Positions 1-22,342 of a stretch of 64,000 nt of DNA are shown here, piece after piece. Position 1 is the first letter of the stretch, and the number at the start of each line of letters is the position of its first letter. The stretch comes from Patulibacter minatonensis DSM 18081. Its GTDB lineage: Bacteria; Actinomycetota; Thermoleophilia; Solirubrobacterales; Solirubrobacteraceae. Made by a program: the position numbers and the translations under genes. The notes under the pieces were generated by a model, which was not told the origin of the DNA, made no database searches, and was given only the letters and a program-made list of their open reading frames with translations. Where the stretch lies: contig NZ_KI912613.1 in the NCBI RefSeq assembly GCF_000519325.1, forward strand, positions 2,145,261 through 2,209,260, written 5' to 3'.

Positions 1-1123
1 GTCCGGCCTCGTCGAGCGCCGCCGCCGCGTCCGCGTCCCGGTCGGCGCCCCCGGCCGCGGCCGCCAGGTGCCACGCGCGGAGCCGGTGGTCGTCGGTCGT
101 CGCGGCGAGCACCGCGTGGGTCCGGGCGCGGTCGGCGTCGGGGGACGCGTGGTACGCGGCGGCGCGGACGAGCGCGTGGCGGAAGCGGATGACGTCGCCG
201 TCGAGCCGCAGGATGCCGCTGCGCTCCGCCGGTCCCAGCGCGGACTCCGCGATCCCGAGCGCGGCCAGGGCCCGGAGCAGCCACGCGACCGGGTCGTGGT
301 CCATCGCCGCCGCGACGCCCAGCGCGCGGCGGCTGTCGTCGGGCAGGCCGGCGATCTCCTGCGCGAAGGCGCGCTCGAGGGCGGGCCCGGATCGCGGGGG
401 CCCGTCGAGCGGGGCACGACCACCGCGCTGCTCGACCGTCAGGAGGCGGGGGAGCTCCAGCAGCGCCAGCGGGTTGCCGCCCGCGGTCCGCAGCAGGTCG
501 CCGGCCAGGGCCGGCGGGAGGTCCGCCGCGTCGCGCGCCATCAGGACGCGGGCGGCGGGCTCGTCGAGCGGGGGGAGCACGTGCTGGTCGAGCCGGGCGG
601 TCTCGGCGTCTCCGCGCGGGGTGCGCGTGGTCGCGAGGAGCGCGATCCGGAGTCCGGCCACGCGCCGGGCGACGAAGAGCAGCGCCTCCCGCGATCCGGC
701 GTCGACCCACTGGAGGTCGTCGACCACGACGACGACCGGCGCCCGGACGGCGGCCTCGCGCAGCAGCCCGAGCAGCGCGGCGGGCACCGCGAAGCGGTCG
801 TGCGGGCTCGGCGGCTCGAGGCCCAGCGCCGAGGCGAGCGCACGCTGCTGCGCGTCGGGCAGCAGGTCGAGCAGCGGCACGACGGGCGCGGTCAGCGTCC
901 GCAGCACCGCGAACGGCAGCGGCGCCTGCGACTCCACGCCGGTCGCCCGCAGGACCGAGCAGCCCCGGGCGCGCTCGGCGGCGACGTCGGCGAGCGCGGT
1001 CTTGCCGACCCCTGGGTCGCCGCGGAGGATCAGCGCCGACCCGCGGGCCGCGCGGACGGCCGCGAGCCGCTCGTCGATGACGCCGAGCTCGCGGTCCCGG
1101 CCGATGAGGGGCTGCGCCGCCAC
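1..1123 (-). CDS. LAL-type ATP-binding regulator, C-terminal part cut off by window edge
   Basis: N-terminal ~374 residues of a large ATP-binding transcriptional regulator of the LuxR/LAL (MalT-like) class. The frame stays open to the window edge. Visible: a leading 'LIGRDREL' segment, Walker A GDPGVGKT at about residues 31-38, Walker B as a run of valines ending VDDLQWVD, and a 'GGNPLALLELPRLL' sensor-like segment, the usual order of the AAA-type domain. The C-terminal HTH expected in this family lies outside the window, so assignment to the LuxR group rests on the ATPase domain and on the intact paralogue next door. Start chosen: GTG at 1121-1123, preceded by CAGACT and a 6-nt gap, as in several leaderless starts here. 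It lies 64 nt downstream of the second LAL gene in the same direction, so the two may be co-transcribed. Confidence 0.85.
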   Translation of the reverse strand, partial: MAAQPLIGRDRELGVIDERLAAVRAARGSALILRGDPGVGKTALADVAAERARGCSVLRATGVESQAPLPFAVLRTLTAPVVPLLDLLPDAQQRALASALGLEPPSPHDRFAVPAALLGLLREAAVRAPVVVVVDDLQWVDAGSREALLFVARRVAGLRIALLATTRTPRGDAETARLDQHVLPPLDEPAARVLMARDAADLPPALAGDLLRTAGGNPLALLELPRLLTVEQRGGRAPLDGPPRSGPALERAFAQEIAGLPDDSRRALGVAAAMDHDPVAWLLRALAALGIAESALGPAERSGILRLDGDVIRFRHALVRAAAYHASPDADRARTHAVLAATTDDHRLRAWHLAAAAGGADRDADAAAALDEAG

Positions 1124-11305: not shown

Positions 11306-12748
11306 ATGCGGCTCAAGCGCCTGTGCACCTTCCCGAACGTCGTCGCCTGCGTGGTCCTGTTCTTCGTCCTCGGCGGTGACGCCGCCGCGAAGGAGGCGTC
11401 GAAGCTGATCACGGGGAAGCAGGTCAAGGACCGATCACTGACGGCCAAGGACGTCAAGAACGCCACGCTGACCGGCAAGCAGATCAAGAGCCGGTCGGTC
11501 CAGACCTCCGACATCGCGAAGAACGCGATCACGGGCGCCGAGGTCAAGGACGGGTCGCTCGGCCCGGCGGACTTCTCCGGCTCGGTCGCCGGCCCGGCGG
11601 GGGCGAAGGGCGAGCCCGGGGCGAAGGGCGAGAAGGGCGACACCGGGGCGAAGGGCGACAAGGGCGACACCGGGGCGCCCGGACCGACGGGGCAGATCCA
11701 GGGCGCGACCGCGGGCGGCGACCTGACCGGCACCTTCCCGAACCCGGCCATCGGCAACGGGGCCGTGACGGGCGCGAAGATCGCCACGTCGACGGTCACC
11801 GGGGCGAACCTGAAGCTGCCGTTCGCGGTGGCGAGCGCCGAGCAGCTGTCCCCGCTGTCGGTCACGAGCTCCGCGAACAGCGACGACCCGGTGGTGTCCT
11901 CCGTCTCCACCAGCACCCAGGCGATCAAGCCGGCGCTGTACGGCGAGGTCAACAGCATCTTCGCCAACTTCGGGACCGCGGGCGTGTACGGCAAGAGCGC
12001 CGGCACCGGTGGCTACGCCGGTCTGTTCTACTCGAGCAACGCCGCCGGCAACGGCCCCGCGCTCCTGGCGCTCACCGAGGGCAACGGCAACGGCATCACC
12101 ACGAACGCCGGCAGCAGCGGCGACGGCATCGAGTCCTCGGTCGACGGCAACGGCAACGCGGTCTTCGGATTCACGCCGAACTTCGGGACGGGCCGTGCCG
12201 CGCGCTTCGCGAACTTCAACACGAGCAACACGAACGCGCCCCTCCGCGTCGACCAGGCGAGCACGGGGAGCATCGCCGAGTTCCGCGCGAGCAACGCGAA
12301 CGTGGCCCGGATCAACGCGGCCGGCAGGGGCTTCTTCAACGGCGGCACCCAGACCGGTGGCGCCGACCTGGCCGAGGTCGTGCCGACCTGCGGCCCGCGT
12401 CCCGTCCCCGGCCAGGTCGTCGAGATCGACCCGCGGACGCCCGACTGCTTCCGCCTCGCCCGCACCGCCGGCAGCACCCTCGTCGCGGGCGTCGTCTCGA
12501 CGGAGCCGGGCGTGACGCTCGGCGCCGACGAGGACGACGCCCTCGGGCCGCAGCTGGCGCTCGCCGGACGCGTGCCGGTCGGCGTCACGGGCCGGGTGCG
12601 CATCGGCGACCTCCTCGTCGCCTCGTCGACGCCGGGGCGGGCGCAGCGCGGCGGTGCCGACCCCGCGGCCGGATCGGTCATCGGCAAGGCCCTGGGCACG
12701 AGCGACGGGGCGAGCGGGCGCGTGACGATGCTCGTGCAGCCCCGCTGA
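11306..12748 (+). CDS. collagen-like surface/secreted protein
   Basis: 480-residue exported protein. An N-terminal membrane/signal segment (FPNVVACVVLFFVLGGDAAA, residues ~9-28) precedes a lysine-rich region with imperfect ~10-residue repeats (LTGKQIKSRSVQTSDI). A short collagen-like stretch of about ten Gly-X-Y triplets (GAKGEPGAKGEKGDTGAKGD) follows, then an Asn/Ser/Gly-rich middle. The C-terminal ~120 residues (from GGADLAEVVP) resemble the end domain of bacterial tail-fibre/adhesin-like proteins, with 'GVVSTEPGVTLG' and 'GRVRIGDLLVASSTPGRA'. ATG at 11306 has GAGG upstream and is preferred to a GTG at 11255. The likely role is structural or adhesive at the cell surface (inference). Confidence 0.82.
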   Translation: MRLKRLCTFPNVVACVVLFFVLGGDAAAKEASKLITGKQVKDRSLTAKDVKNATLTGKQIKSRSVQTSDIAKNAITGAEVKDGSLGPADFSGSVAGPAGAKGEPGAKGEKGDTGAKGDKGDTGAPGPTGQIQGATAGGDLTGTFPNPAIGNGAVTGAKIATSTVTGANLKLPFAVASAEQLSPLSVTSSANSDDPVVSSVSTSTQAIKPALYGEVNSIFANFGTAGVYGKSAGTGGYAGLFYSSNAAGNGPALLALTEGNGNGITTNAGSSGDGIESSVDGNGNAVFGFTPNFGTGRAARFANFNTSNTNAPLRVDQASTGSIAEFRASNANVARINAAGRGFFNGGTQTGGADLAEVVPTCGPRPVPGQVVEIDPRTPDCFRLARTAGSTLVAGVVSTEPGVTLGADEDDALGPQLALAGRVPVGVTGRVRIGDLLVASSTPGRAQRGGADPAAGSVIGKALGTSDGASGRVTMLVQPR

Positions 12749-17986: not shown

Positions 17987-18129
17987 GCCCAGAACCTAGT
18001 GCGCCCCGGCCACGATCCCGGTCCCGCCCGGTGACGGCCCACCCGGCCGGGGACCCTGTGGTCGTTGTGGTCGCGGGGCGGGCGCCCGGAGGACCGTCGC
18101 CGAGCGCGCGGGCGACGAGAGGTGCGAGC

Positions 18130-18299
18130 GATGCGGCGTCGGCCCGTCGGACGGTCCATGCGCGCATCGGTCGGCCCGGCGGGCGGCAGCGATGCGGCGT
18201 CGGCCCGTCGGACGGTCCATGCGCGCATCGGTCGGCCCGGCGGGCGGCAGCGATGCGGCGTCGGCCCGTCGGACGGTCCATGCGCGCATCGGTCGGCCC
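18130..18299. repeat. array 1: 61-bp tandem repeat, 2.8 copies
   Basis: Three units start with GATGCGG at 18130, 18191 and 18252, spaced exactly 61 bp; the copies look identical, and the third stops short at ~18299. Each unit holds the perfect palindrome ATGCGCGCAT and an outer GATGCG...CGCATC inverted repeat enclosing CCGTC/GACGG arms. The array sits in the 444-nt gap between the divergent malic enzyme and glycerophosphodiesterase genes. The rest of that gap shows nothing beyond the malic enzyme -10. Confidence 0.95.
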
Positions 18300-18430: not shown

Positions 18431-19189
18431 ATGGCCGGTCTTCCCCCGCTCTACGCGCACCGCTTCGGGCGCGACAAGGGCCCCGACTCCTCGCGCAGGG
18501 CCCTGCGCCGCACCCTCGCCGGCGCCGTCGACGGCCTGGAGACCGACGTCTGCCTGACGTCCGACGACGAGCTCGCGCTGATCCACGACCCGTGGTTGAC
18601 GCTGGGCACGACGGCGAAGGGCTGGGCCCATGAGACCCCGTGGGAGCCCACGCTGCGCGACTGCTTCCTCCGCGACCGCCACGGCGTGAAGACCGCCCAG
18701 ACCCCGATGCTCCTGCAGGAGCTGTGGGACGCCGTGCCGAACGGCATGCCCCTGCAGCTCGAGGTCAAGTCCCACGGCGACCCGGAGCTCGCCGCCCGTT
18801 CCGCCGAGGCGATCTGCGACGCGCTCCAGGCCCGGCCCGAGCGCCACGGCGTCGAGGTCATCTCCTTCCACGGCATCGCCTGCGAGGTCGCCGCCGCGCG
18901 CGGTGAGGACGCCCGCCTCGTCGTCTGGTCCGACATCCCCGCCCGGGCCCTCCTGGACTGGGCGATCCACCACGGCGTCGGCGGCGTCTGCGTCGAGCCC
19001 CAGATCCTCCACCCGCGCCTGGTCGACGACCTGCGCTCCGGGGGCCTGAGCGTCACGAGCGGCACCATCAACGAGCTGGAGCTCGCCCGCCGCGTCGCGT
19101 CCCTCGGCGTCGACGCGATCACGAGCGACCGTCCGGGCGTCCTCCGCGCCGCCGACGTGGCGGAGCACGCCGAGGTGCTGGCGGGCTGA
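18431..19189 (+). CDS. glycerophosphodiester phosphodiesterase
   Basis: 252-residue cytoplasmic GDPD-family enzyme hydrolysing glycerophosphodiesters to glycerol-3-phosphate and an alcohol. Family motifs: N-terminal 'LYAHRFGRDKGPDSS' (HR of the HR-G motif), 'AVDGLETDVCLTSDDELALI' with the metal-binding Glu and Asp, catalytic 'HDPWL', 'MPLQLEVKSHGD' (E-x-K) and the C-terminal 'LGVDAITSDRPG'. TIM-barrel length fits. Start: ATG at 18431, with CACCCT 6 nt before it. Array 1 lies upstream and array 2 downstream. No transporter for glycerophosphodiesters is nearby. Confidence 0.9.
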   Translation: MAGLPPLYAHRFGRDKGPDSSRRALRRTLAGAVDGLETDVCLTSDDELALIHDPWLTLGTTAKGWAHETPWEPTLRDCFLRDRHGVKTAQTPMLLQELWDAVPNGMPLQLEVKSHGDPELAARSAEAICDALQARPERHGVEVISFHGIACEVAAARGEDARLVVWSDIPARALLDWAIHHGVGGVCVEPQILHPRLVDDLRSGGLSVTSGTINELELARRVASLGVDAITSDRPGVLRAADVAEHAEVLAG

Positions 19190-19238: not shown

Positions 19239-19464
19239 GCCGCGGATTCCTGCCGTCCGCCGGCAACGATCCGCAGCACCACCCGCGCAGGCGCCGGCCG
19301 CCGCGGATTCCTGCCGTCCGCCGGCAACGATCCGCAGCACCACCCGCGCAGGCGCCGGCCGCCGCGGATTCCTGCCGTCCGCCGGCAACGATCCGCAGCA
19401 CCACCCGCGCAGGCGCCGGCCGCCGCGGATTCCTGCCGTCCGCCGGCAACGATCCGCAGCACCA
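19239..19464. repeat. array 2: 61-bp tandem repeat with hairpin core, 3.7 copies
   Basis: Units begin with GCGGATTCC at 19242, 19303, 19364 and 19425: period exactly 61 bp, and complete copies appear identical. Each core folds as an outer stem (GCGGAT / ATCCGC), an internal mismatch, and an inner stem (TGCCG / CGGCA). It fills most of the 415-nt gap between the glycerophosphodiesterase and the AbiEi/DUF559 gene; the flanks (19190-19238, 19465-19604) show nothing else. Core shared with array 3. Confidence 0.95.
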
Positions 19465-19604
19465 GCCCCGCCGGAGTCGTCGGCGCGGTCGTTCGCCCGC
19501 GGACCTGCCGTCGGCGTGCCTCGGTGCGAGATCGGAGCGGGTTCAGTGCGGTATCGGCACTGCTGGACACCCACGTTCCGCGACGGGACGAGCAAGATCG
19601 AGGC

Positions 19605-20519
19605 ATGGACGACGCACGTCTCGCTCGACTCGCCGCCCGGCAGGGAGGGGTCTTCACGAGCGCGCAGATGAACGCCTGCGGCCTGAGTCCCTCCGGGGCG
19701 CGCCATCGCGTTCGGACGAGCCGCGTGTTCCGGGTTCGGAGGGCGGCCTACACGCTGAGCCCGCACCACGACGCGTTGACCGACCTGTGGGCCGTGATCC
19801 TCACGATCGACCCCGGGCGAGGGTGCCTGAGCCACTGGACCGCCGCCTGGATGCACCGGATGTGGCGGGCGACGGGCAGCCCGATCCACATGTCGGTGGT
19901 CGGTTCCGGCGGCCGCCGACTGCCCGGTGTCGTCGTCCACGCCCCGCGCATCCTCCTGCCGGACGACGTCGTGGAGGTCCGAGGGCTCCCGGTGACCAGC
20001 GCCGGCCGGACCGTCCTCGACGTCGCCGCGAGAGCCGGCGACGACACCGTCCGGCGCCTGATCCGGGAGGGTGAGGTCCAGGGACTCCTCCCCGCCGGCG
20101 AGATGCTCCGGGTGGTCGCGGCGCACCCGAACCACCCGGGCGCGGGCCGCGTGCGGCGGGTGGATCCCGGCACACCCGCGGATGCGCTCGGGCAGACGAC
20201 CCTGGAGGACGAGCTCGACGCCTTGATCCGCGAGCTGCCGATGCCCGCGCCCGAGCGTCAACTCACGGTGCGGGGTGCCTCGGGTGCCTGGTACCACCTC
20301 GACTTCGGGTGGGGAACGGCGCGGCTCGCTGCGGAGGCCGACGGTCGATCGGTTCACGAGCGTGCGTCGGCGCTCGAGAGCGACCGGTTCCGGGACAACG
20401 ATCTCGCGGCAGTCGGCTGGTTGACGATGAGGTTCACGGACCGCCAGCTCCGCCGTGGTCGCGCGGACGCGGGACGCCAGCTCGTCGCGGCCATGGCGGA
20501 TCGAGGAACGTCCGCATGA
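19605..20519 (+). CDS. AbiEi-like N-terminal domain plus DUF559-type nuclease-like C-terminus
   Basis: 304-residue protein of a type common as stand-alone genes in actinobacteria. N-terminal ~45 residues (ARLAARQGGVFTSAQMNACG, then SPSGARHRVR and VFRVRRAAYTL) match the winged-helix domain of AbiEi-type antitoxins of type IV toxin-antitoxin systems. The C-terminal ~80 residues resemble DUF559/Vsr-like endonuclease folds: 'YHLDFGWGTARLAAEADG' supplies Asp and Glu-x-Asp, followed by H-E-R and 'DRFRDNDLAAVGWLTMRFT'. No AbiEii toxin gene is adjacent, so a toxin-antitoxin role is unsupported. Start: ATG at 19605, with CAAGAT 6 nt upstream. The gene is bracketed by repeat arrays 2 and 3, which share a core sequence. 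Confidence 0.82.
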   Translation: MDDARLARLAARQGGVFTSAQMNACGLSPSGARHRVRTSRVFRVRRAAYTLSPHHDALTDLWAVILTIDPGRGCLSHWTAAWMHRMWRATGSPIHMSVVGSGGRRLPGVVVHAPRILLPDDVVEVRGLPVTSAGRTVLDVAARAGDDTVRRLIREGEVQGLLPAGEMLRVVAAHPNHPGAGRVRRVDPGTPADALGQTTLEDELDALIRELPMPAPERQLTVRGASGAWYHLDFGWGTARLAAEADGRSVHERASALESDRFRDNDLAAVGWLTMRFTDRQLRRGRADAGRQLVAAMADRGTSA

Positions 20520-20559
20520 TTCGACACCCCGGGGTCGGGGTCGGGGTCGGCCCCGGTTG

Positions 20560-20845
20560 CTGCGGATTCCTGCGGCCCGGCGGCGGCGAGCCGCAGCACG
20601 AGGCGCAACGCAGCTGGCTGTTGCGGATTCCTGCGGCCCGGCGGCGGCGATCCGCAGCACGAGGCGCAACGCAGCTGGCTGTTGCGGATTCCTGCCGCCT
20701 GACGGCAGCGATCCGCAGCGTCACTCGCGTCGGCGCCGGCTGCTGCAGGTTCCTGCCGCTTGACGGCAGCGATCCGCAGCGTCACTCGCGTCGGCGCCGG
20801 CTGCTGCAGGTTCCTGCCGCCTGACGACAACGATCCGCAGCACTC
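20560..20845. repeat. array 3: 61-bp diverged tandem repeat, ~4.6 copies
   Basis: Cores start at 20562, 20623, 20684, 20745 and 20806, each 61 bp apart. Units 1-2 are almost identical; units 3-4 share another variable tail (TCACTCGCGTCGGCGCC); unit 5 is truncated. The ~39-bp core (GCGGATTCCTGC...GATCCGCAGC) is that of array 2, and stem positions often change in pairs (for example TGCCG/CGGCA to TGCGG/CGGCG). It occupies the 542-nt gap between the AbiEi/DUF559 gene and purB; 20846-21061 shows nothing recognisable. Confidence 0.95.
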
Positions 20846-21061: not shown

Positions 21062-22342
21062 ATGATCCCGCGCTACACCCGCCCCGAGATCGGTGCCGTC
21101 TGGACCGACGACGCGAAGTTCGAGTCGTGGCGGGAGGTCGAGGTCGCCGCGTGCGAGGAGATGGCCGGCCCGACGGAGGACGATCTCGTCGCGATCCGCA
21201 AGGCGACCTTCACCGCGCAGGCGGTCCACGACCGCGAGAAGATCACCGACCACGACGTCGCCGCGTTCGTGGACGTGCTGTCCGCCGACGCCGGTCCCGG
21301 CGGCCGCTGGATCCACTACGGCCTGACGTCCTCCGACGTCCTCGACACCGCGCTGGCGCTGCAGATCCGCAAGGCCGGCGAGATCCTCGTCCGCGGGGCC
21401 CACGAGGTCGCCGAGACGCTGGCGACGAAGGCCCGCGAGCACGTCCACACCGTCTGCGTCGGCCGCACGCACGGCGTGCACGCCGAGCCGACGACGTTCG
21501 GCATCAAGCTCGCCGGCTTCGCCTTCGAGGCCGACCGCAATGCGAAGCGCCTCGAGGCCGCGTTCGCGCAGGTCGCCGTCGGCGCGCTGTCCGGCGCGGT
21601 CGGCACGTACGCCGCGACGTCGCCGGAGTTCGAGGAGCGGGTCCTCACGCGCCTGGGTCTCGAGCGGGAGCTCATGTCCACGCAGGTCATCCCGCGCGAC
21701 CGCCACGCCGAGCTGCTGCAGGCGATCTCGCTCGCCGGCGCCGGCCTCGAGCGCCTGGCCACCGAGATCCGCCACCTGCAGCGGACGGAGGTGCGCGAGG
21801 CCGAGGAGCCGTTCAAGAAGGGCCAGAAGGGCTCCTCCGCGATGCCCCACAAGCGCAACCCGATCACGACGGAGCGCATCACCGGCCTCGCCCGCGTCCT
21901 CCGCGGCTACGCCCAGGCGGGCGTCGAGAACGTCGCCCTCTGGCACGAGCGCGACATCTCCCACTCCGGTGCCGAGCGCGTGATCCTGCCCGACGCCACC
22001 ATCGCGCTCGACTACATGCAGTCGCTCGCCACCCGCGTCGTCTCGGGCCTCGTCGTCCACGAGGACCGGATGCTCGAGAACCTGCAGCTGACCTCCGGCG
22101 CCCTGTTCTCCCAGCGCCTGCTGCTCGCCCTGATCGAGACGCAGGGCCTCGTCCGCGACGAGGCGTACCGCACCGCGCAGGAGCTCGCCCAGCGCGCCTG
22201 GGACACCCGGACCCCGCTGAAGGACCTCGCCGCCGCCGACGAGCGGTGCGCGGGCCTCGACCTCGACCTCGTCTTCGACCCGAGCTTCCACACGCGCTAC
22301 GCCGACGAGATCGTCGGCCGTTTGGCGACCGCAGGGCTGTAG
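21062..22342 (+). CDS. purB: adenylosuccinate lyase
   Basis: 426-residue enzyme of the fumarase/aspartase superfamily acting twice in purine synthesis (SAICAR to AICAR, adenylosuccinate to AMP). N-terminal 'MIPRYTRPEIGAVWTDDAKF', 'WIHYGLTSSDVLDTALA' (substrate-binding Ser/Thr), catalytic 'GRTHGVHAEPTTFG', and the mobile signature loop 'GSSAMPHKRNPITTE' with the catalytic Ser are all present. Length (~430) is normal. Start ATG at 21062. Upstream is repeat array 3; downstream it converges with a HAD gene after only 14 nt. Confidence 0.97.
   Translation: MIPRYTRPEIGAVWTDDAKFESWREVEVAACEEMAGPTEDDLVAIRKATFTAQAVHDREKITDHDVAAFVDVLSADAGPGGRWIHYGLTSSDVLDTALALQIRKAGEILVRGAHEVAETLATKAREHVHTVCVGRTHGVHAEPTTFGIKLAGFAFEADRNAKRLEAAFAQVAVGALSGAVGTYAATSPEFEERVLTRLGLERELMSTQVIPRDRHAELLQAISLAGAGLERLATEIRHLQRTEVREAEEPFKKGQKGSSAMPHKRNPITTERITGLARVLRGYAQAGVENVALWHERDISHSGAERVILPDATIALDYMQSLATRVVSGLVVHEDRMLENLQLTSGALFSQRLLLALIETQGLVRDEAYRTAQELAQRAWDTRTPLKDLAAADERCAGLDLDLVFDPSFHTRYADEIVGRLATAGL

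Follow-up and report, generated by a model that had tools for sequence, protein, structure and literature searches.

Across the order to which Patulibacter minatonensis belongs, genes whose products join an AbiEi-like domain to a DUF559 nuclease domain are associated with palindromes. We consider it rather probable that gene and palindromes form a pair of the REP/RAYT kind, built around an unrelated, non-HuH nuclease; recognition and mobilisation of the palindromes by the protein are what we infer from their arrangement. Besides the palindrome of the window, described below, five other flanking palindromes were counted or sampled (those of G007, of G002, of the paralogous loci L096 and L097, and of genus g41), and dispersed copies were found for all five. 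The gene appears to stay mostly fixed in place while the palindromes spread. It is not an obvious transposon, because it lies at conserved places (beside groEL; between the GDPD and purB genes) and because a tblastn search with the window protein found no homologue in plasmids or phages.

The window locus and its protein

The window is a stretch of 64,000 nucleotides from Patulibacter minatonensis DSM 18081, whose genome is a single contig of 5.52 Mb. TRF called three tandem arrays in it, each with a period of exactly 61 bp (Table 1). As the preliminary description had stated, arrays 2 and 3 share a core in the same orientation and bracket an AbiEi/DUF559 gene; the TRF calls, the hairpin positions and the Pfam matches agree on this. 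All units of the two arrays are on the forward strand. The consensus of the 39-nt hairpin in the two arrays is GCTGCGGATTCCTGCCG-N5-CGGCANCGATCCGCAGC, followed by a 22-nt linker. The copies in array 2 had been described as identical and those in array 3 as diverged, and this too is borne out: the hairpins of array 2 do not differ, whereas array 3 mixes two hairpin subtypes and two linkers. Array 1 belongs to another hairpin family, which has a relative elsewhere in the genome (L011:3991-4157). No partner gene was found for this family, and array 1, which has the same period, is probably one more dispersed array of this general kind. Elsewhere in the window, at 11605-11677, there is a 27-bp tandem repeat, GAAGGGCGACACCGGGGCGAAGGGCGA, one frame of which could give a collagen-like KGDTGAKGD repeat.

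Table 1. Positions of the arrays, genes and predicted protein halves at the window locus
Feature	Position	Strand	Description
Array 1	18127-18299	-	TRF array; other 61-bp hairpin family, outer stem CGATGCG/CGCATCG
GDPD gene	18431-19189		Neighbour of the AbiEi_4-DUF559 gene
Array 2	19239-19484	+	Four identical 39-nt hairpins (19239-19277, 19300-19338, 19361-19399, 19422-19460), 22-nt linker; TRF 19239-19471, 61 bp x 3.8, 98% match
AbiEi_4 + DUF559 gene	19605-20519	+	304 aa; between arrays 2 and 3
Array 3	20559-20841	+	Five diverged 39-nt hairpins (starts 20559, 20620, 20681, 20742, 20803), period 61 bp; TRF 20546-20843, 61 bp x 4.9, 86% match
Adenylosuccinate lyase gene	21062-22342		Neighbour of the AbiEi_4-DUF559 gene
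AbiEi-like half	residues ~1-190		Predicted; Pfam, PADLOC, structure model, PDB comparison
Vsr/I-Bth0305I-like nuclease half	residues ~196-302		Predicted; Pfam, structure model, PDB comparison

The predicted protein is made of an AbiEi-like half and a nuclease half resembling Vsr and I-Bth0305I. In Pfam, AbiEi_4 (E 4.5e-7) and DUF559 score above the cut-off and MTES_1575 below it; the PADLOC models for AbiEi match residues 4-171, the best with E 8.7e-26. A structure model built from seven homologues (mean pLDDT 80.6, pTM 0.60) was compared with the PDB. The N-terminal part (residues 1-195) corresponds to the AbiEi antitoxin 6y8q (Z 13.1), and residues 198-302 match the catalytic domain of I-Bth0305I (Z 13.7), 3hrl (Z 13.4) and Vsr (Z 9.9), the I-Bth0305I and Vsr matches spanning about 97-101 residues. 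E201, D202, D233, E244, D246 and H251 are invariant in the seven homologues and are candidate catalytic residues. The C-terminal half thus resembles Vsr, the EDxHD homing endonuclease I-Bth0305I and DUF559 nucleases both in fold and in its acidic and histidine residues; unlike them, it is fused to an AbiEi-like half and tied to palindrome families. Nothing around the window gene points to an intron or intein. AbiEi_4-DUF559 proteins are a large family without an assigned function. A Vsr-like DUF559 protein of Caulobacter has a genetic link to DNA damage (PMC12907096).

Matched palindromes beside homologous genes

A 36-base pattern for the window core, allowing up to three mismatches, has 29 matches in the genome; they are not due to chance, because the reversed control pattern has none. 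Besides arrays 2 and 3 the core occurs at ten further sites, usually as a 61-bp tandem, and the linkers vary from site to site while the period stays at 61. It is absent from all of 40 relatives, seven of them in the same genus. The window family is therefore both dispersed and species-specific. The preliminary description had named two findings that would count against a tie between gene and arrays, a core scattered through the genome apart from such genes and a gene conserved without arrays. The first is what we observe, in that an AbiEi-DUF559 gene adjoins none of the ten other sites. The second is not borne out in any simple form, because the syntenic orthologue in G007 has arrays on both sides as well, though with a different core.

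This orthologue (62% identity) keeps the order GDPD-gene-purB. Its core has 89 matches on about 18 contigs of G007, a count made on both strands in which a near-symmetric hairpin may appear twice, and no match in seven other genomes of the genus. All 50 array spacings are exactly 60 bp (some units again being counted on both strands), and linker identity is 79% within arrays against 43% between arrays. The homologue in G002 is likewise bracketed by a core of its own, confined to G002, and this copy sits away from the GDPD/purB site; the GDPD neighbour gene is absent from relatives other than G007 and G002, and in G002 it lies near a contig end. In total, five of seven close homologues in the genus are bracketed by hairpin arrays of 60-61 bp (once 72 bp), each with its own core; in two genus members, G001 and G005, a hairpin array or strong palindrome is present at just one flank. 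Many of the relatives' genomes are fragmented.

The same arrangement is found among paralogues. The two closest in the window genome (at 782307 and 3506878; loci L096 and L097) show 60% and 53% identity and are each flanked on both sides by 60- or 61-bp arrays of a hairpin of their own. Relatives of these hairpins lie elsewhere in the stretches read, for one in L015 and L009 and for the other in L018. A scan of genome contigs with the window protein returned only two remote relatives. Gene plus flanking arrays thus recurs, both in other species and in paralogues, and because it does so, the two ideas put forward at the outset, an accessory unit and repeats that are targets or by-products of the nuclease, are both live.

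We then turn to the order as a whole, where 232 genomes were searched with a profile built from the seven homologues. Homologues were taken in list order, together with further listed ones, their flanks unseen beforehand, and 89 had usable flanks. Matched sequence within 300 bp on both sides was present at 16 of these 89 unselected homologues, as against one of 80 distal control pairs given the same test 500-800 bp away, the single positive there being a real array (Fisher p = 2e-4); a random-window control gave 0.5%. The matched pairs are hairpin-shaped in the cases read. Four of the 16 belong to the window's own genus, and the bracketed genes are scattered over the protein tree rather than forming one clade. 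In four out of five sampled homologues a matched palindrome pair was undetected.

A bracketed homologue stands beside groEL in two genera, g41 and g43 (L112, L120, L121, L127). At these groEL-linked loci the palindrome pair varies between species and the two sides stay alike, so that they change in step; in L112, and also in L119, a 49-nt palindrome is identical at 49 of 49 positions on the two sides. Within g41, which belongs to another family, six carriers (G073, G068, G077, G079, G075 and G074; L261-L278) have one 49-nt palindrome with a species-specific inner stem. This palindrome, which flanks the groEL-linked gene, reaches copy numbers of 107, 85, 59, 50, 36 and 29 in the carriers and is missing from six other g41 genomes. 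By crude gene calls, 17 scored copies comprise seven between convergent genes, seven between co-directional genes and three possibly inside ORFs. In G077, a hairpin-rich genome, the groEL-linked homologue contains a single in-frame stop, and just one of its flanks has a palindrome.

Paired changes in the inner stem had been cited in the preliminary description as a sign of conserved structure in the window family. Pairing holds in 86% of cells among the 26 distinct units, but covariation (0.110, against 0.104 +/- 0.011 in shuffles) is no better than chance, so the claim is weak for this family and the structural argument for paired stems rests on others. In g41, inner-stem covariation is strong, at 0.222 against 0.091 +/- 0.011, with none of 500 shuffles as high. 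Only this inner-stem value is free of selection, because the search pattern fixes the outer stem; the G007 alignment was left out of the evidence, its units having been selected with a paired pattern.

Known systems and competing explanations

REP sequences are short palindromes, mostly intergenic, species-specific and present in many copies, beside a partner that behaves like a single-copy, fixed gene (PMC8266576, PMC3116915). The present palindromes resemble those of REP/RAYT systems (TnpA-REP; REPtrons, REPINs) in being species-specific, intergenic, dispersed and also found flanking a partner gene. The partner, however, differs: an AbiEi-like winged helix-turn-helix with a Vsr/EDxHD-type nuclease takes the place of the HuH/Y1 RAYT enzyme. 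A further difference lies in the tandem arrays, whose period is exactly 60-61 bp and whose linkers vary with the locus. At the foot of REP/RAYT palindromes there is also a conserved tetranucleotide, usually GTAG; read by eye, the foot of the window units inspected has no GTAG, and GTAG is not constant at the foot in G007 or g41. A search for Y1_Tnp found no match in the whole window genome and was positive in control genomes. Membership of the RAYT/REP family was rejected, because the genome has no HuH enzyme and the palindromes no GTAG foot. The more general bacterial repeats of the MIRU, BOX and ERIC type are short, intergenic and sometimes tandem; the present repeats, unlike those, go with one particular family of neighbouring genes and differ between species.

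If the REP/RAYT-like reading is right, the AbiEi-like half would bind the palindrome, by analogy with AbiEi, which binds the 23-N3-23 repeats of its operator. The break would then be made by the nuclease half, in the palindrome or next to it, and palindromes would be copied or duplicated during repair. In the window genus, the same process may duplicate the palindrome together with about 21-22 bp of adjacent DNA, which would yield the exact 60/61-bp tandem arrays. Stated at its fullest, the reading is that REP-like palindromes have a second class, served by AbiEi_4-DUF559 proteins as dedicated nucleases in place of a HuH enzyme: each protein would recognise its own palindrome through the AbiEi-like half, cut through the Vsr/EDxHD half, and thereby spread and homogenise the palindromes, in one genus expanding them into 60-61-bp arrays; on this fuller version our judgement is evenly divided. 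Several observations count against a REP/RAYT-like pair: no matched pair was detected at most sampled homologues, the upstream-only cases suit a plain operator, covariation in the window family equals that of shuffles, and the G077 homologue carries its in-frame stop.

The chief rival is autoregulation alone. On this view the protein binds the palindrome upstream of its gene as an operator of the AbiEi type, and the copies downstream and elsewhere in the genome are common repeats, spread by other machinery, that happen to share the operator sequence or to be its source. AbiEi does repress its own promoter, through an extended 23-N3-23 inverted repeat upstream of its gene (PMC3985639), and the palindromes seen here, at 39-50 bp, have nearly the length of that operator. 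Several homologues have a strong palindrome upstream only, 4-76 bp from the gene, and upstream palindromes are enriched near homologues (20%, against 5% in a far control). An operator, however, would not lead one to expect the matched downstream copy found at 16 of the 89 homologues. Downstream hairpins are enriched too (17% against 3% in the far control), and none of 14 scored intergenic copies lies between divergent genes, where promoters would be. We therefore regard autoregulation alone as unlikely.

Two further explanations we think improbable. In one, the hairpins are transcription terminators or stabilisers of mRNA 3' ends that slippage has multiplied in tandem, with the gene as just one neighbour among many. 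Many arrays do lie between convergent genes or directly after stop codons, and the stems are highly stable; but no U-run follows them, some palindromes lie 0-40 bp upstream of start codons, Rfam has no match in the window, and terminators would not be expected to have sequences particular to one species and matched to the nuclease gene nearby. In the other, which we judge equally improbable, palindrome, gene and palindrome move whole as a composite element with the palindromes as its ends, dispersed copies being MITE-like remnants of internal deletion. The identity of the end palindromes in L112 and L119 would fit, as would different sites in different species (the G002 copy) and the three paralogous units of the window genome. 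Long-conserved loci such as the groEL-linked ones of g41 and g43, with a palindrome pair that changes in step, look more like a fixed gene, however; none was found in plasmids or phages, and multi-copy near-identical units were not seen.

It is very improbable indeed that the gene, as an AbiEi antitoxin, makes up an accessory unit of type IV toxin-antitoxin or abortive infection beside which the arrays are incidental: the N-terminal half is AbiEi-like by profile and fold, as the PADLOC match attests, but the AbiEii nucleotidyltransferase toxin gene, with which AbiEi is bicistronic in AbiE systems, does not adjoin the window gene (its neighbours being GDPD and adenylosuccinate lyase), and AbiE lacks the C-terminal nuclease half, the second palindrome downstream and the many dispersed copies.

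These data suggest that gene and repeats form a system of a kind not described before, similar to REP/RAYT but with an unrelated enzyme. To our knowledge, HuH RAYT proteins are the only enzyme class tied to the spread of short bacterial chromosomal palindromes. No paper linking DUF559 or AbiEi to such repeats was found in the literature searched, subscription literature lying outside it. If the REP/RAYT-like reading is true, the layout of a fixed nuclease gene plus dispersed palindromes arose more than once, and a family now named only AbiEi antitoxin-like or DUF559 gains a testable function; such genes, where annotated as parts of toxin-antitoxin or defence systems, may be neither. For RAYT itself, the mechanism of palindrome spread is still open (PMC8266576).

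Gain of dispersed arrays

Empty sites were found for two dispersed arrays of the window genome; none was resolved for gene plus arrays as a whole unit. For the array in L018:4965-5175, both G007 and G001 lack an array in the orthologous intergenic DNA. The corresponding site in G002 was ruled out as an empty one, because it is occupied by hairpins of the family found in G002 itself. The array in L018:6155-6440 has no counterpart at the orthologous site in G007. At a third site, in L021, the alignment with relatives is too diverged to read. Exact insertion junctions and any target duplication are unreadable, because the intergenic DNA compared has diverged.

Array density was compared in two relatives. 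G001 has arrays of its own, with a 59-bp hairpin unit (GTTCCGGCT...AGCCGGAAC), at L213:18267-18694 and L215:16510-16726; their sequence differs from that beside the G001 copy of the gene. At least two arrays thus occur in 200 kb of G001, as against no convincing array in 200 kb of G004, which is without a close homologue. Small as the sample is, this agrees with a model in which the gene drives the palindromes.

Our census of arrays in the window genome covered a sample of 400 kb. A further hairpin family, GATGGTCGGTATCCGACC, forms 62-72-bp tandem arrays at L011:9299-9475, L021:6637-6885 and L024:2809-2977, and at all three sites a crude gene finder places convergent genes on both sides.
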